64,000 nucleotides of DNA from Nitrospirota bacterium. GTDB taxonomy: Bacteria; Nitrospirota; Thermodesulfovibrionia; UBA6902. This document shows, piece after piece, positions 27,038 to 35,259 of the stretch. The number at the start of each line of letters is the position of its first letter. Within the stretch, counting starts at the first letter, position 1. Where the stretch lies: NCBI GenBank assembly GCA_016214845.1, contig JACRMS010000014.1, positions 1-64,000 of the forward strand, written 5' to 3'. Made by a program: the position numbers and the translations under genes. The notes under the pieces were generated by a model. That model was not told where the DNA came from and did no database searches. It worked only from the letters and a program-made list of their open reading frames with translations.

Positions 27038-28870
27038 TGTGTTTGCTGCTCAGGTGAAGCTGTAGGCGATTTTATGCAAGCAGAATCATAGATTTTTATA
27101 AATGCCTCTGGGTCCAGCTTTTTAATATCATTAAGTTCATACATTGATTTGTCATTATCATAATTATCATGATCAAACCCTATAATATTAAGTTCATTAT
27201 TAGAAATGTCTTTAATAAATCTCATTGAATCCTTTTTGTATTCAGCCTTATAATTCTTACACTGCTCTTTGTGATCGCCCAGTACAATCTGTATCTTCTC
27301 CCAATTATCATAGAAGTATTCCTGCAGAAGGGGAATAATTTTGGTGGCAAACGCATTACACAATGCAGGGTAATCCTTCACCTCCATAAAATATGCATGG
27401 CCAATCTGATGGTCCCGGTCATAAAGGAACTCGATTCTCTCATTTACCTTTGCAAGCAATTTCTTAAGGTTAATGGATGCCCCCAGTGGGTGTTCAACTG
27501 CCTCTAACAAGTCAGGTCTCGGCATCATTTCCTCAAATTCAAACCGTCTTCTCAATGCTTGTATCAATCAGGGCAATTGATCTGTCGGCTGTGTTCATCG
27601 TGCCGATGATGTGGAGGTTATCCGGCACACCGAAAGAATCTTGAGAATACTGAAGCGTTGCTCTCATTTCATGCTTACTGCCTAACCGTTTATCTTTTTC
27701 AATCAGAGTGATAAGCTCTCCGAAGATTTTAGAAATATTCCCTCGGTTGATTTCATCAATGATAAGGACATATGGTTTCTTATCAGGGTCATCATCCGCC
27801 CGTTCACAAAGACGTTTGAACACACCATCTTTGACATCATATTGAATTTCTTTTGTATTGTTTATGGGCTTAATGCCTTCAATGAATTCTTCATATGAGT
27901 AGGATTGATGGAAGGTGATGAATTCGATTCGAGGTTTGTCACCTCCTCGTAGAGAATCAAAAGTTTCTTTAGCTTTATTGTAACTCGCATCATTAACATA
28001 TCCTTCTCGATTAAAGGTATCCACGATCTCTTTTTCTTTACCTAATAGCTCAAGTGCTTTGAAGATGGTAGAGTACGTCTTCCCCGTGCCAGGAGGGCCG
28101 AAGAGGATGTGGTTGAGGGGGTGCTCAGATGAGTTCATCCGAGGAACAATAGCTTCTTTCTTGGATTTAATTTCTTTCTTACCTTTCCGTTCTGACTCTA
28201 TGTGCGCTTCATGAGAAATTTTAAAAAAAGGTTTATTCAATTTTGCTGCACTCTCAATAATTTCTTTATATTTGTCAAAAGAAAAAACCTTTTTAGCATT
28301 TGGTTTTTTTAATTCATTCAAGTATGGCATTATATTATCGTCAGGCAAGTGATTCATGAGATAGTCAATAGATTTACTATCCAATGGCATATACCTTTCA
28401 GGATTTAACCAGAATAGACCCATTGTAATTTTTGCAACTCCAACTTCCTTTACATTTAGTACTGATTCAATATCCATTTTTTTAAAGTCTTCGTTCAAAG
28501 CTTCCTTATACAGTTCCCACAATTTATTAATATCAGCTTTCTCGTGATTACGACTAACAAACCATGTTCGCTGATTATCGACAAGAGGGATACCAGAAAA
28601 GTCCGATGGAATTAATGATGTTAGATTCAATTCACGTTTTATGTTTTCTAATATATTTATCCTGTTGCTATCTGTTAACCTTCTGTTAAAATTCCCAAAA
28701 AAGGTAAACGGGTCTATTTCCTCAGAACTTTCAAGTTTAAAAGTAGGTATATTTTCTTTTTTCAATCTCTTTAAGAACTCCAACAATTCCTCCTGCCTGT
28801 TCTCATACTCAAGAAGTTTTCTCGCAATCTCTTTATAAATCGGAATCCAGGTAAACATAGGCTTGTCCAT
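27034..28870 (-). pseudogene. mcrB: McrB AAA+ GTPase, frameshifted (two fragments)
   Basis: Motor subunit of McrBC. The start is the ATG at 28870, with GAGGAGG 8 nt upstream. The N-terminal DNA-recognition region (about 1-250) is followed by the AAA+ core: Walker A FGPPGTGKT, Walker B VLIIDEINRGN, and the McrB signature MNTADRSIALIDT. The first fragment ends after IEKTV at 27539; the continuing frame (ALRRRFEFEEMMPRPDLL...) is reached by removing one base near 27559, where GATACAAGCA should read GATACAGCA. The second fragment (to 27034) supplies the sensor/C-terminal part. The stop TGA overlaps the mcrC ATG. Read-through as selenocysteine is unlikely because another in-frame TGA follows two codons later. 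Confidence 0.82.
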
Positions 28871-28884
28871 CAGATATCTCCTCC

Positions 28885-29141
28885 TCATTTGTGTATATTA
28901 TTTAACCCCAAACTCCCCATAAATCCCCCAAACTCATTCCCCGCGACATTCGCCTTTTCATACTTGCATTTGATCGCCAGCATCGCCTCACGCAGCTCTT
29001 CATTGGCGCTCCCGTTCTTGATTGCCGAATATGCCTCGATGAATGCGGCAGCTCCACCATCTCCACAGGGCGCACCTTGTCATTCCACCGCTGCATGTAT
29101 GCGGCGTCGAAGATTTTTAAAAGTAGTGTCTTGCCGATCAA
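28885..29141 (-). pseudogene. Fused gene remnants upstream of mcrB
   Basis: Two broken pieces join here. The 5' piece (about 29130-29050) reads KTLLLKIFDAAYMQRWNDKV, like the start of an HD-domain protein. The 3' piece, in another frame, reads ELREAMLAIKCKYEKANVAG and ends at 28885, 14 bp before mcrB. I do not recognise the second piece. Neither has a complete frame. It looks like a deletion junction between two former operon members. Confidence 0.45.
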
Positions 29142-29146
29142 TCTGT

Positions 29147-29658
29147 TTATTCTTTCTCTCTGTTAAAGCCGATTTTACGTTTTTTGGTTTCAGGCGGCGT
29201 CATCAACTGGCGGATCGCATCAAAAACAATCTTAAAATGTGCGTCATATTTCTTTCCATCAATTCAAGTTTTCGGGCAAGGTCTTTATGGGTTGAAAGTA
29301 TCTCCCGCAATTTTACAAAAGCCCGCATGACAGCAATATTTACATCAATAGCTCTTTCGCTGTTTAATACGCTTGAAAGCATAGCAACGCCCTGTTCTGT
29401 AAAGGCATAGGGAAGAAATCCGCCGAAGTGCTTCTTGTGAGGTATCACATTCTGTGATACCAGTGCGTCGGCCTCTTCTTCGCTGATTTGAAACATGAAA
29501 TCTGCCGGAAATCTCCTTATGTTCCTTCGCACCGCCTGGTTGAGCGCCCTTGTTTCTACTTTGTAAAGCTCGGCCAAATGCATGCTCAGCATAACTCTCT
29601 GTCCACGAATCATATAAATTTTCCCATCAACCACTTCCTGTTGAATAACAATCTCCAT
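29147..29658 (-). pseudogene. ORF6N-domain protein, frameshifted near the C-terminus
   Basis: ORF6N domain protein (KilA-N-type phage or defence DNA-binding domain). The open frame (29658-29203, 151 aa) has [36 protein letters not shown] and [15 protein letters not shown]. It then drifts at [12 protein letters not shown]. In the next frame the family's usual end continues ([17 protein letters not shown], then TPPETKKRKIGF) to a TAA at 29147, so one A is missing in a short A-run at about 29249-29251. Most of the domain is intact, so the shortened protein might still fold. AAGAGGGGG precedes the ATG. Confidence 0.75.
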
Positions 29659-29764
29659 TGATATGTCCCCCTCTTAACTATTGGTTGCTGTTCATTATTT
29701 TCCCAACGTCAGCCATTCTGCCTTTTTTATTCACATGATACATAGCATCTGTGACAGCAGTATG

Positions 29765-30766
29765 TCATGAATGCTTTTTGAGCGTTTGTGAAAGTTCTTC
29801 GTTTATCTGCCTTCTCAGGCGTGCGGGTCTTACCACTTCAATATAAGGCATCCATGAATATATCCAGCGCTTGATCTCGTCCGTCCCAGCCACTTCGAAT
29901 GACGACTCCACATCGCCATTTGCAAGCACCCGCCTCTTTTCAGACGGATGCCATTTGTCCTTTCTGAGGACGTACTCGGCCACCTTTTCTGAAAATCTTA
30001 CTGTTACAGAGGAGGGTTTATCGTTATACTGTATCCCCCAGCAATGTAACAGACGGTCCTTCAGATCGAAGTCATCCCCCAGTTTAAAGCGGAAGGCCGT
30101 TTCCTTCAATTCCACAATCCTGTCCAGCGCAAAAGTCCGCATTTCTTCCCTGAGGCGACAATAGCCGGTGATAAGCCATGCGCCGTCGTAAAATATCAGA
30201 CCGTAGGGGTCAACCCGCCGTTTAGTGATTCTTCTGCTGTAAAGGACGTTATAGACAATATCAATCGAGAGCTTTTCCCGGATACAATGAGAGATGGCAC
30301 TGAAATAATCATTCAGTTTTTCGGTCTCAATAGCCTCAGGCATTTTTACGACAACAGGGAATTTGTCCGGCGGTATCTTCTTTATATTGGCAAGGTCCTC
30401 AACAAACTTCTGAAATTCCTGCCTCAGGGGAGCGCCCAGGTGTGAAACCGTCTCTCCCATTGTAAACAGCAGCAAAAGCTGTTCCTCTGACAGGATCAGT
30501 TTCTTTATGCGGTCTCCGTGGGTAAATCTGTAGCCGCCTCTCTGTCTGTCAAACTCAACAGGGTCAATGATGTTGATAAGCGCGAGGTCTCTATGGACGG
30601 TTCTTTTTGTTACTTCAAATTTGTCGGTGAGCGAATTTACTGAGGGGAATTTGTTCTGCGCAATAAGCGTATAGATACCAAGAACTCTGATGACCCTTTC
30701 GGTAATGCCGGAGGGTTTATCTTTCTTACGTCTCGCCTTTATGTTTTCAGGATACCTTGCTTTCAC
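29765..30766 (-). CDS. WYL-domain transcriptional regulator
   Basis: 333 aa. An N-terminal winged helix-turn-helix (VNSLTDKFEVTKRTVHRDL, about residues 42-62) precedes a WYL domain (about 150-225; DPYGLIFYDGAWLITGYC) and a WCX C-terminal part. WYL regulators are common controllers of defence islands and respond to nucleic-acid-type ligands. The start is a GTG. It lies at the edge of the island and is likely its regulator (inference). The frame is intact. Confidence 0.85.
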   Translation of the reverse strand: MKARYPENIKARRKKDKPSGITERVIRVLGIYTLIAQNKFPSVNSLTDKFEVTKRTVHRDLALINIIDPVEFDRQRGGYRFTHGDRIKKLILSEEQLLLLFTMGETVSHLGAPLRQEFQKFVEDLANIKKIPPDKFPVVVKMPEAIETEKLNDYFSAISHCIREKLSIDIVYNVLYSRRITKRRVDPYGLIFYDGAWLITGYCRLREEMRTFALDRIVELKETAFRFKLGDDFDLKDRLLHCWGIQYNDKPSSVTVRFSEKVAEYVLRKDKWHPSEKRRVLANGDVESSFEVAGTDEIKRWIYSWMPYIEVVRPARLRRQINEELSQTLKKHS

Positions 30767-33058: not shown

Positions 33059-34132
33059 ATGACAGACATCAACTCAATCGCCTCGCAGGTCAAGCTCAAC
33101 TGTAATATTTCAGACGCCAAATTCTGGGGCTATTACCAGCCCTGCGGGCTTCTCCTGAGAATGAGGGACCTGTACAAGATCGAAAACGACGTGAAGCCCC
33201 GGGAGAAAGTTGAGACCGAAAGGATAGCTGACTGGATCGGGAAAAGGGAAAAGCTGTGGGAGGAACTTCAGCTTCGTGATTTTCAGAAAATAGAAATTGA
33301 CGGTAAGCGGTATGGTCCCTTTGATGTAAAGAACATAAATAACGCGCTTGCAAGCCGTGGACTTCTCTACGGGGCCGGTTATGGGAATCTTTTAAAGCCC
33401 GCATTCCTCCTTGCCGAGATCTCCGGGAAAACCTCGGTCGGAAAGCACAGCATTTTTATCGCCGGCTGGGAAATGGCCCGCGACCTTTCAACTTCCCCTG
33501 CGATGCTCAGGGGCAATATGATCATTGTGAGACAGCAGACCATGAATTTATTTTTCCGGGACAAGTTCGAAGAGGTAATGGCAGGGAAATGCAGCGGCGC
33601 GCTCTTTCACGCGTTTTCCGAATACGGCCTCGGTAAAGATGAGGCGGCGCGGCTTTCTCCTGAAGAGCTTGAAGAGAAATTAACACGCATCACACATGAA
33701 GAGGTCTCGGTTTACATCCGCCACGAACTCGGCGAAGCAGCGCAAAGAAGGAGACTCGGGAAGTGGTGGCGGGAACTGTTACTCCAACTCCCGTACGGCA
33801 GGGCCGAACTGTTTTTGAGAGGGCTGAAAGACGTCATGTCGGACACATGTGACAACGGAATGCTGGCATATATAATCAAAAACAAAAAGGCAGGCTCCCT
33901 GTTTTTTTATGTTGCCCTGCTCGGCGGTTTCAGGCGGAGCATTTTCCCCGAGATTATAAAAGCGTATGAAGGGTTCACAGCGACACGCGACTGGAAGCTT
34001 GTTGAGCGCGCGCGCAAAGAAGGCCGCATGAAAGCAAAAGGCTATGTGAAAATTCTTAAAGAAATTTATAACAGCGGCAATATCTCTTCTGAGATCATTG
34101 AGCGGGAATTCATGCCGAAGCTTAACACTTAA
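33059..34132 (+). CDS. Conserved hypothetical protein between selB and selC
   Basis: 357 aa from the ATG at 33059; a TTG at 33038 would add 7 residues. Predicted soluble, rich in charged residues, no signal peptide. I recognise no catalytic motif. Segments such as YGPFDVKNINNALASRGLLYGAGYG and HEEVSVYIRHELGEAAQRRRLG look conserved-protein-like, and the length suggests a DUF family known from deltaproteobacterial genomes. It starts 99 bp after selB on the same strand and ends 50 bp before the selC promoter, so it may share the selB transcript. A link to selenium use is only positional. Confidence 0.7.
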   Translation: MTDINSIASQVKLNCNISDAKFWGYYQPCGLLLRMRDLYKIENDVKPREKVETERIADWIGKREKLWEELQLRDFQKIEIDGKRYGPFDVKNINNALASRGLLYGAGYGNLLKPAFLLAEISGKTSVGKHSIFIAGWEMARDLSTSPAMLRGNMIIVRQQTMNLFFRDKFEEVMAGKCSGALFHAFSEYGLGKDEAARLSPEELEEKLTRITHEEVSVYIRHELGEAAQRRRLGKWWRELLLQLPYGRAELFLRGLKDVMSDTCDNGMLAYIIKNKKAGSLFFYVALLGGFRRSIFPEIIKAYEGFTATRDWKLVERARKEGRMKAKGYVKILKEIYNSGNISSEIIEREFMPKLNT

Positions 34133-34181
34133 CCTTTGTTCTTCCGCTCTTCCGCGCTATCACACTTTTGCTCTTATTCAG

Positions 34182-34210
34182 TTGCCTTGCTCAAAAAAAA
34201 CAGGTATCAT
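34182..34210 (+). promoter_or_regulatory. Sigma-70-type promoter of selC
   Basis: TTGCCT (34182-34187), 17-bp spacer, TATCAT (34205-34210). The tRNA starts 11 bp after the -10 element. Confidence 0.6.
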
Positions 34211-34220
34211 GTAATGCATT

Positions 34221-34318
34221 GGGAGTGTATAGGGTTCTGGTGTCCCTCCCGGACTTCAAATCCGGTGTTGCTTGCCACAAGTGAGCAGGGTGGGTTCGAT
34301 TCCCACACGCTCCCGCCA
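34221..34318 (+). tRNA. selC: tRNA-Sec (UCA anticodon)
   Basis: 98 nt including an encoded CCA. An 8-bp acceptor stem forms between GGGAGTGT (34221-34228) and ACGCTCCC (34307-34314), with one G-T pair and discriminator G. The anticodon stem CCGGA/TCCGG holds the loop CTTCAAA with anticodon TCA at 34256-34258. A long variable arm follows (TGTTGCTTGCCACAAGTGAGC region), then the T arm GTGGG-TTCGATT-CCCAC. The long acceptor, long extra arm and TCA anticodon identify tRNA-Sec. The element described next begins at the base directly after CCA. Confidence 0.97.
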
Positions 34319-34382
34319 GTACACTTCGCTTGCGCTACGCGTACTTGGCAGTACTTTTAGGTAAGCGAACTGAAACGGAGTT
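34319..34382 (+). repeat. Left inverted repeat of the GIY-YIG element
   Basis: 64 nt, starts GTACACTTCGCTTGCGC and ends AACGGAGTT. It shares with the reverse complement of the right arm the ends GTACACTTC and GGAGTT, a perfect 17-base core CGCGTACTTGGCAGTAC, and AGGTAAGCGAA. The core itself contains a small hairpin, GTACT-TGGC-AGTAC. Confidence 0.85.
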
Positions 34383-34408
34383 TACCACGGGGACATGGGC
34401 TTGGCGCA

Positions 34409-34699
34409 ATGTATTACACATATATCTTGAAAAGCATCAAAACTCCCGGGGCGATATATATCGGATATACTGGTGATCTGACATCAAGATTGGAGCAGCA
34501 TAATGACCCTCAAAATACCGGGTATACCAGGAGACACGCTCCATGGGAGATAGAAACATCTATAGCTTTTTCTGAAAAAGAAGAAGCTCAAAGATTTGAA
34601 CTGTACCTTAAGTCCAGTTCTGGCAAGGCATTTATGAAAAAAAGACTGCTATCGGGTGAATTTAGAGAGGTCTTGGAGAAGTTTAATAACGGCAGGTAA
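34409..34699 (+). CDS. Small GIY-YIG nuclease
   Basis: 96-aa single-domain GIY-YIG endonuclease. The two-strand core is YYTYILKS ... IYIGYTGDL. The catalytic Arg is in RLEQHN and the metal-binding Glu is in the EAQRFELYLK helix. Stand-alone proteins of this size are annotated only as GIY-YIG family, and their substrate is mostly unknown. The ribosome site is weak. The stop codon (34697-34699) falls at the first bases of the right inverted repeat, so repeat and gene end together. Confidence 0.9.
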   Translation: MYYTYILKSIKTPGAIYIGYTGDLTSRLEQHNDPQNTGYTRRHAPWEIETSIAFSEKEEAQRFELYLKSSSGKAFMKKRLLSGEFREVLEKFNNGR

Positions 34700-34760
34700 C
34701 TCCGCGTTGCTTCGCTTACCTTGGGGTACTGCCAAGTACGCGAAACGAAGTGAAGTGTAC
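34698..34760 (-). repeat. Right inverted repeat of the GIY-YIG element
   Basis: 63 nt; its reverse complement starts GTACACTTCACTTCG and aligns with the left arm over its whole length with one or two 1-nt gaps and mismatches mainly in two short blocks. It ends 4 bp before the ATG of the next gene, so the repeat supplies that gene's 5' leader. Confidence 0.85.
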
Positions 34761-34764
34761 AAAT

Positions 34765-35115
34765 ATGGCAATCAGGTGCGGAAATTGCGGCAGGGATTAT
34801 GATGTCACCCTGTTTGAATTTGACAGGTCCATTACGTGTGCCTGCGGAAGGACTGTCACGTTCAGGCATGAGAGGATGACGGACGAGGCGCTTTATGCGC
34901 GGAGCGCTGAAGACAGGAAGGTCAGGGAGATAAGGGACATGGCCGACCGGATCGCTTCCCTGATCGTCGCCAGTGACTATCCGATGATTGATATTGAAAT
35001 AGAAAAGCAGAAGCTCAGGGAGAGGATCTCAGAGCTCTTCCCGGACAAGATCGATCTCTACGATCTCATTTACGAACCGAGATTTAAGAGGCTGAAGGAG
35101 CAGTTCAGGGAGTGA
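34765..35115 (+). CDS. Hypothetical protein with N-terminal Cys knuckle
   Basis: 116 aa from the ATG at 34765; a GTG at 34750 lies inside the inverted repeat. The N-terminus has IRCGNCGRDYDVTLFEF ... ITCACGRTV, a CxxC plus CxC pair that could bind zinc. The rest is helical and charged (ERISELFPDKIDLYDLIYEP). No family is recognised. The leader comes from the right repeat of the GIY-YIG element, so the insertion may have changed its expression. The 144 bp after it holds nothing clear. Confidence 0.65.
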   Translation: MAIRCGNCGRDYDVTLFEFDRSITCACGRTVTFRHERMTDEALYARSAEDRKVREIRDMADRIASLIVASDYPMIDIEIEKQKLRERISELFPDKIDLYDLIYEPRFKRLKEQFRE

Positions 35116-35259
35116 GGATAGCGCTTCAATGCTATCGCGCTTTGATTTTCCTTAATGCACGGAACAAGATATAAAAAAGAAAGCGAGGTATAGAAAGGAA
35201 AATATTTCAAAAGTGCAAAAGAACAAAAGCGCGGAAGACTGAAAGTGCGCAGGGCCGAA

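Follow-up and report, generated by a model that had tools for sequence, protein, structure and literature searches.

A unit of 442 bases carrying one small nuclease gene lies flush against the selenocysteine tRNA gene (selC) in the stretch of DNA analysed here (64,000 nucleotides, hereafter the window). It is probably a free-standing homing element for tRNA genes; we infer the homing itself from sequence comparisons. Judging from the loci compared, members of its family generally insert within a tRNA gene and bring along a substitute for the half they displace. This element group is apparently widespread among bacterial tRNA genes and undescribed so far, no description of such bacterial elements having been found in the open-licence papers searched. 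If true, this reading would account for many small GIY-YIG nuclease genes that are currently without function, and would provide a source of partial tRNA genes besides integrase islands.

Organization of the unit at selC

The locus is composed of the following features:

34221–34318, + strand: tRNA-Sec gene (selC), identified by ARAGORN and Rfam (RF01852, 73.2 bits); intact, with the CCA encoded; host gene of the element
34319–34369, + strand: left inverted arm (part aligned to the right arm), with further hairpin sequence to about 34382
34409–34699, + strand: GIY-YIG nuclease gene, 96 aa ORF (Pfam PF01541, E 9e-15)
34711–34760, − strand: right inverted arm; the element end is the point where homology to congener G036 resumes
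34765–35115, + strand: downstream flank gene, coding for a 116 aa zinc-ribbon-like protein, syntenic in G036

The arms are imperfect inverted repeats with an alignment score of 60, against 32 for the best of 5000 first-order Markov shuffles (0/5000 as good). They contain a perfect 17-base core, CGCGTACTTGGCAGTAC, at 34338–34354 with its complement at 34726–34742, and both fold as hairpins. The first base of the left arm directly follows the CCA of tRNA-Sec, while the right arm ends at 34760 and is spaced by 4 nt from the next ATG (34765). This architecture (arms around a single 96-aa gene, core, internal hairpins and both junctions) had been described in an earlier note on the window and was confirmed. 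Between the arms there is a single intact GIY-YIG gene of 96 codons and nothing else is encoded: the unit has neither a known transposase nor an integrase gene, and the search for intron families gave no match at E ≤ 1 across positions 34000–35200, hence no group I ribozyme core. The downstream flank gene, whose product has no Pfam match, lies outside the element because it is syntenic in G036. The nuclease gene is single-copy in the 3.4-Mb genome (the second match is distant, 32%). A 15-base version of the core has no other zero-mismatch site in this genome, the next-best site having 2 mismatches, and no convincing further copies of the arms were identified in the genome or its order. Upstream of selB, the window also carries a row of genes (27539–30766) coding for an AAA_5 ATPase, an ORF6N-domain protein and a WYL-domain regulator, possibly a defence or prophage remnant.

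The residues of the nuclease motif (Y5, Y17, R27, H31, E64) are conserved in alignments. The best PDB matches of its predicted structure (pLDDT 91.5) are Slx1, HIGLE and UPF0213, and the modelled fold is Slx1/UPF0213-like. Slx1 is a branched-DNA nuclease, which makes recognition of stem-loop DNA by the window-type nuclease an attractive hypothesis. The window protein (P0001) has no matching NCBIfam model and no match at E 1e-5 in phage records (50,697 records) or in plasmids; one distant locus was found in viral contigs.

No close homologue of the nuclease was identified among nine congeners, and selC is present without the element in four (G034, G036, G037, G040). tRNA-Sec is conserved in congeners through its last base, where homology ends. 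The window and G036 are 95.7% identical along the 138 bases that end at 34318, and identity resumes at 34760 (93–95% onward), so the element fills exactly the interval between the homologous flanks. In G036 (L126) the interval holds, in place of the element, ~2 kb of DNA coding for an AAA_14/DUF4143 ATPase and a THEP1-like protein; this locus is thus not a clean empty site. Both G036 and G034 have the sequence ATGATTT..AAATCA after selC, which is likely the ancestral flank and is absent from the window. The DNA downstream of selC is variable in the window's genus.

Related nucleases at tRNA and tmRNA genes

The proteins closest to the window nuclease (L031, 75%; L032, in genome G002, 71%; L033, 63%) have a scattered distribution, G002 belonging to another family of the same order. 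L032 is docked on selC, L031 on the 3′ end of tRNA-Sec and L033 on tRNA-Ser(CGA). The tRNA-Phe assigned by ARAGORN in L031 was rejected, the sequence being the 3′ end of tRNA-Sec. In the three loci a hairpin of the form TAAACTTCGCTNNNGCTTCGCTTA is found directly after the CCA, with its inverted partner at the far end, and the right hairpin is directly followed by a copy of the host tRNA 3′ end (CGCTCCCGCCA, CACTCCCGCCA and TCCCTCTCCGCCA in this set). These repeats, of 11, 11 and 13 nt, are short. The outer base pairs of the hairpins vary between copies yet still pair when inspected by eye, and it seems to be the structure of the arm hairpins, not their sequence, that is conserved. The terminal motif ACTTCGCTNNNGCTACGC of the window left arm is common to the selC copy in G002, and, leaving aside one-mismatch near-misses, selC carries the core motif in 2 of the 47 genomes. 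A third exact core match (G008) was rejected as an element copy: its surrounding DNA is unrelated.

A search starting from P0001 alone gave 50 loci, in 23 of which a same-strand tRNA or tmRNA gene lies upstream. A profile run against 396 genomes of the phylum identified 169 distinct nuclease loci, 144 with usable proteins. Among the latter, 91 adjoin a co-oriented tRNA or tmRNA gene, a fraction biased upward by a profile built mostly from tRNA-docked members; when high-scoring loci are considered, 37 of 86 have such a gene at most 300 nt upstream on the same strand. From ~50 tRNA genes per genome, we estimate the chance of tRNA adjacency at a random position to be below 1%. Two layouts are found. 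Type I consists of an intact tRNA, the nuclease and a 3′ tRNA fragment, type II of a 5′ tRNA fragment, the nuclease and an intact tRNA. An intact tRNA or tmRNA lies immediately upstream of the nuclease gene in 64 loci (type I) and immediately downstream in 27 (type II), while 53 loci have neither. In type I, the host tRNA aligns to the sequence that follows the nuclease gene (score of at least 30) in 27 of 67 loci, compared to 0/63 further downstream and 11/670 for pairs from other loci. The 5′ fragment of type II often ends in the D loop (position 12–26) or in the anticodon loop (33–36), and in many cases the nuclease stop codon lies inside the first bases of the intact tRNA. In L171, L172, L096, L103 and similar loci it is tRNA positions 8–10 (TAG) that serve as the stop codon. 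For tRNA-Ser(CGA) the break occurs at 36|37 in both layouts (L215, L069, L194). The duplicated tRNA ends vary in length between 11 and 35 nt, with no fixed-length target duplication.

The only RNA genes found as hosts are tRNA and tmRNA genes, plus one group I intron near L091. The latter (L091 1792–2127, genome G005; RF00028, 65 bits) is located between two GIY-YIG reading frames. tmRNA genes with a related nuclease gene just downstream were observed in L034, L036, L037, L050, L146, L211 and L213.

Significant inverted arms are present in the window, L031, L033, L038 and L043, and weaker ones in L032 and L044. Such arms are retained only in the closest relatives (L031 and L033, more weakly L032) and in a few Patescibacteria-like copies, while the majority of the wider family has other arms or none.

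Occupied and empty sites and the nature of the element

The syntenic leuB/tRNA-Asn locus, found in 17 genomes of one family, carries elements in L225, L227 (type II), L229 and L230 and relics in L231, L232 and L241; the remaining loci showing a tRNA have no nuclease gene. The flank that follows the CCA of the empty locus L238 is the one that follows the tRNA fragment in L230 (85% identity over 81 columns, both starting from base 0) and in L225 (81% over 73 columns), and it does not match the flank after the intact tRNA of these two loci. The abutment of the empty-site flank on the fragment shows that the native 3′ half was pushed downstream, and that insertion takes place within the tRNA gene, which is made whole again. 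The 3′ half of the intact tRNA either arrived with the element or was rebuilt during insertion. The whole insertion at this site amounts to a few hundred bases and contains the nuclease gene only. Protein clades track tRNA identity: the isotype changes 28 times on the 144-protein tree compared to 58.0 times when shuffled (0/200 as low), although the shortness of the protein leaves many forks of this tree with weak support. The tRNA-Asn clade (n = 13) has one isotype change and both layouts inside.

These observations are best accommodated by a minimal selfish element that invades tRNA genes. Its GIY-YIG nuclease would cut an uninvaded tRNA gene within a stem-loop or at the T-arm/acceptor junction, and repair from an element-bearing copy would bring in the nuclease gene along with a substitute for the tRNA half that was cut off. 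The expected outcome, with a complete tRNA on one side of the element and the native half left over on the other, is what the relatives display. In the selC clade, entry would take place 11–13 nt from the tRNA 3′ end, with the inverted hairpin arms as bounds, and the window copy would be one such element on tRNA-Sec. Unlike its nearest relatives, it has no right tRNA fragment, probably owing to a later deletion, which in the window lineage would have reached the next gene and removed both the 11-nt fragment left by insertion and the DNA originally downstream. A point against homing is that the rebuilt intact tRNA would be expected to remain open to cleavage, unless it is protected by its sequence context or by modification.

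Three characters of homing elements are found in this family: cognate element-free alleles (the tRNA-Asn empty sites and selC in the four congeners), a patchy spread with degenerate copies (the relics L231, L232 and L241, and sporadic relatives), and a nuclease of a homing superfamily with conserved catalytic residues (PF01541). The intact hybrid gene accompanied by a displaced native end, which characterizes gene-end-replacing elements, is found in the family, the window copy being devoid of the displaced end. A homing element strictly defined is recognised by cleavage and conversion, both of which are putative here.

The earlier note viewed the unit as a minimal mobile element using a GIY-YIG enzyme in place of a transposase or integrase. 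Mobility, the nuclease as sole gene and a docking at the tRNA that is not accidental are retained from this proposal, while the enzyme as transposase and the arms as general element ends, given their restriction to few copies, are not. Of the checks it put forward, the search at other tRNA ends revealed relatives docked on many of them, and selC was found without the element in four congeners, G036 nevertheless not being a clean empty site. Neither of the outcomes that the note had held to speak against mobility was observed: the arms also occur outside the window, and relatives do not uniformly carry the unit.

A terminal-inverted-repeat transposon, with the arms as ends and the nuclease as transposase, would account for the significant arms of the window and of the loci listed above, as well as for a unit boundary that coincides with the arm ends. 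It is an unlikely explanation: most of the family lacks such arms, there is one copy per tRNA target with no dispersed arm-only copies, and the duplicated sequence is a tRNA end of variable length (11–35 nt) and not a constant target duplication. The element, having neither a transposase nor a constant duplication, is not an insertion sequence. We consider slightly less likely still that the nuclease is the passenger of a small island which a tyrosine integrase, acting in trans, mobilises at tRNA attachment sites. tRNA genes are classic integrase sites, a restored tRNA with a fragment is the classic footprint (PMC9897764), and an integrase-like reading frame was noticed by eye just upstream in L031. 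However, the clean insertion at tRNA-Asn has only a few hundred bases and the nuclease gene alone, the nuclease tree tracks the target although a passenger should be indifferent to it, 3′ and 5′ halves are both restored within one protein clade, and the fragments carry inserted hairpins (see below).

The Slx1/UPF0213-like fold and the prokaryotic Slx1-like/TrmH fusion discussed in PMC1564403 would suit a host gene that serves tRNA or DNA metabolism and is transcribed together with the tRNA, perhaps a repair enzyme of Slx1 type or an RNA-processing enzyme. This reading was already disfavoured, and it is very improbable in view of the patchy presence at syntenic loci with relics and empty sites, of the tRNA fragments on the far side and of the different tRNAs found in different clades. 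The element is neither an integrase island nor an intron. Group I introns invade tRNA loops and may carry GIY-YIG genes; the tRNA is restored here at the DNA level, which makes splicing unnecessary, and no intron was found in the unit region (34000–35200).

The closest parallel to the homing element proposed here is provided by mobile ORFs of fungal mitochondria that make gene hybrids (Allomyces atp6; Glomus/Rhizophagus atp6, atp9, cox2 and nad3; PMC3630166). In both cases a free-standing gene of a homing-type endonuclease (GIY-YIG in atp9) is found in the host gene and carries a replacement end (the 3′ end in fungi), the native end being left downstream as a displaced duplicate (PMC3630166). 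In fungi the host genes code for mitochondrial proteins, the inserts are long and the enzymes are larger and mostly of the LAGLIDADG type (PMC3630166), whereas the bacterial elements occupy tRNA and tmRNA genes, measure a few hundred bases and have enzymes of 80–100 aa and both 3′- and 5′-restoring layouts. If the homing reading is true, gene-end replacement as known from fungal mitochondria is also effective in bacteria, at tRNA and tmRNA genes, with an insert of this size and a protein of 80–100 residues. SegB of phage T4 and other free-standing GIY-YIG homing endonucleases also lie among tRNA genes and promote their own inheritance, but in the parts of PMC2988022 consulted the SegB target is a tRNA intergenic region in phages and a duplicated tRNA half is not reported. 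Integrase-type islands share a target inside the tRNA gene, with one intact and one partial tRNA at their ends (PMC9897764). They are ~9–23 kb long in the viral examples of that study compared to ~0.3–0.45 kb for the tRNA-gene elements, which differ also by the absence of integrase and cargo and by a 5′ half that can be the restored one. UPF0213/Slx1-like GIY-YIG proteins (PDB 1zg2, 6seh, 7cq2; PMC1564403) have the same fold and small single-domain size; known members were studied as repair nucleases or are uncharacterised, and no description of them as tRNA-gene mobile elements was found in the open-licence literature searched.

More tentatively, the elements may form a distinct and widespread class of autonomous bacterial mobile elements, a view that we hold as possible rather than probable. 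Their Slx1-like structure-selective nuclease would recognise, at the DNA level, the stem-loops of tRNA genes (in cruciform or single-stranded form), enter at the D, anticodon or T/acceptor region, restore either half and leave palindromic scars in the displaced one. Paired occupied and empty sites are numerous, which opens the homing mechanism to direct testing.

Palindromes, hairpins and tandem units

In displaced tRNA fragments, the D, anticodon or T loop is replaced by short perfect palindromes, TCCCGA..TCGGGA or variants in which both pairing positions have changed. They were observed in L183, L188, L196, L199, L201, L203, L206 and L208 (tRNA-Asn) and, for type II, in L096, L160, L172 and L187. 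Individually they are rarely significant (6/36 and 9/28 at 5%), and they are recurrent in the tRNA-Asn group. In L184, L191, L204 and L216 two successive hairpins with variable, well-pairing stems are found between tRNA-Ser(CGA) and the nuclease gene, separated by a near-constant CGAGATCTCG and followed by CGGATCCGCC; this arrangement looks like a structured RNA or DNA element. A tRNA-Ser direct repeat in L184 was rejected, the same sequence being native in the empty sister. L206 (G298:C17:117467-118029) and L215 (G184:C3) have a nuclease gene and tRNA fragment in tandem, which suggests either repeated entry, the regenerated tRNA end being invaded again, or unequal crossing-over or duplication of the unit.
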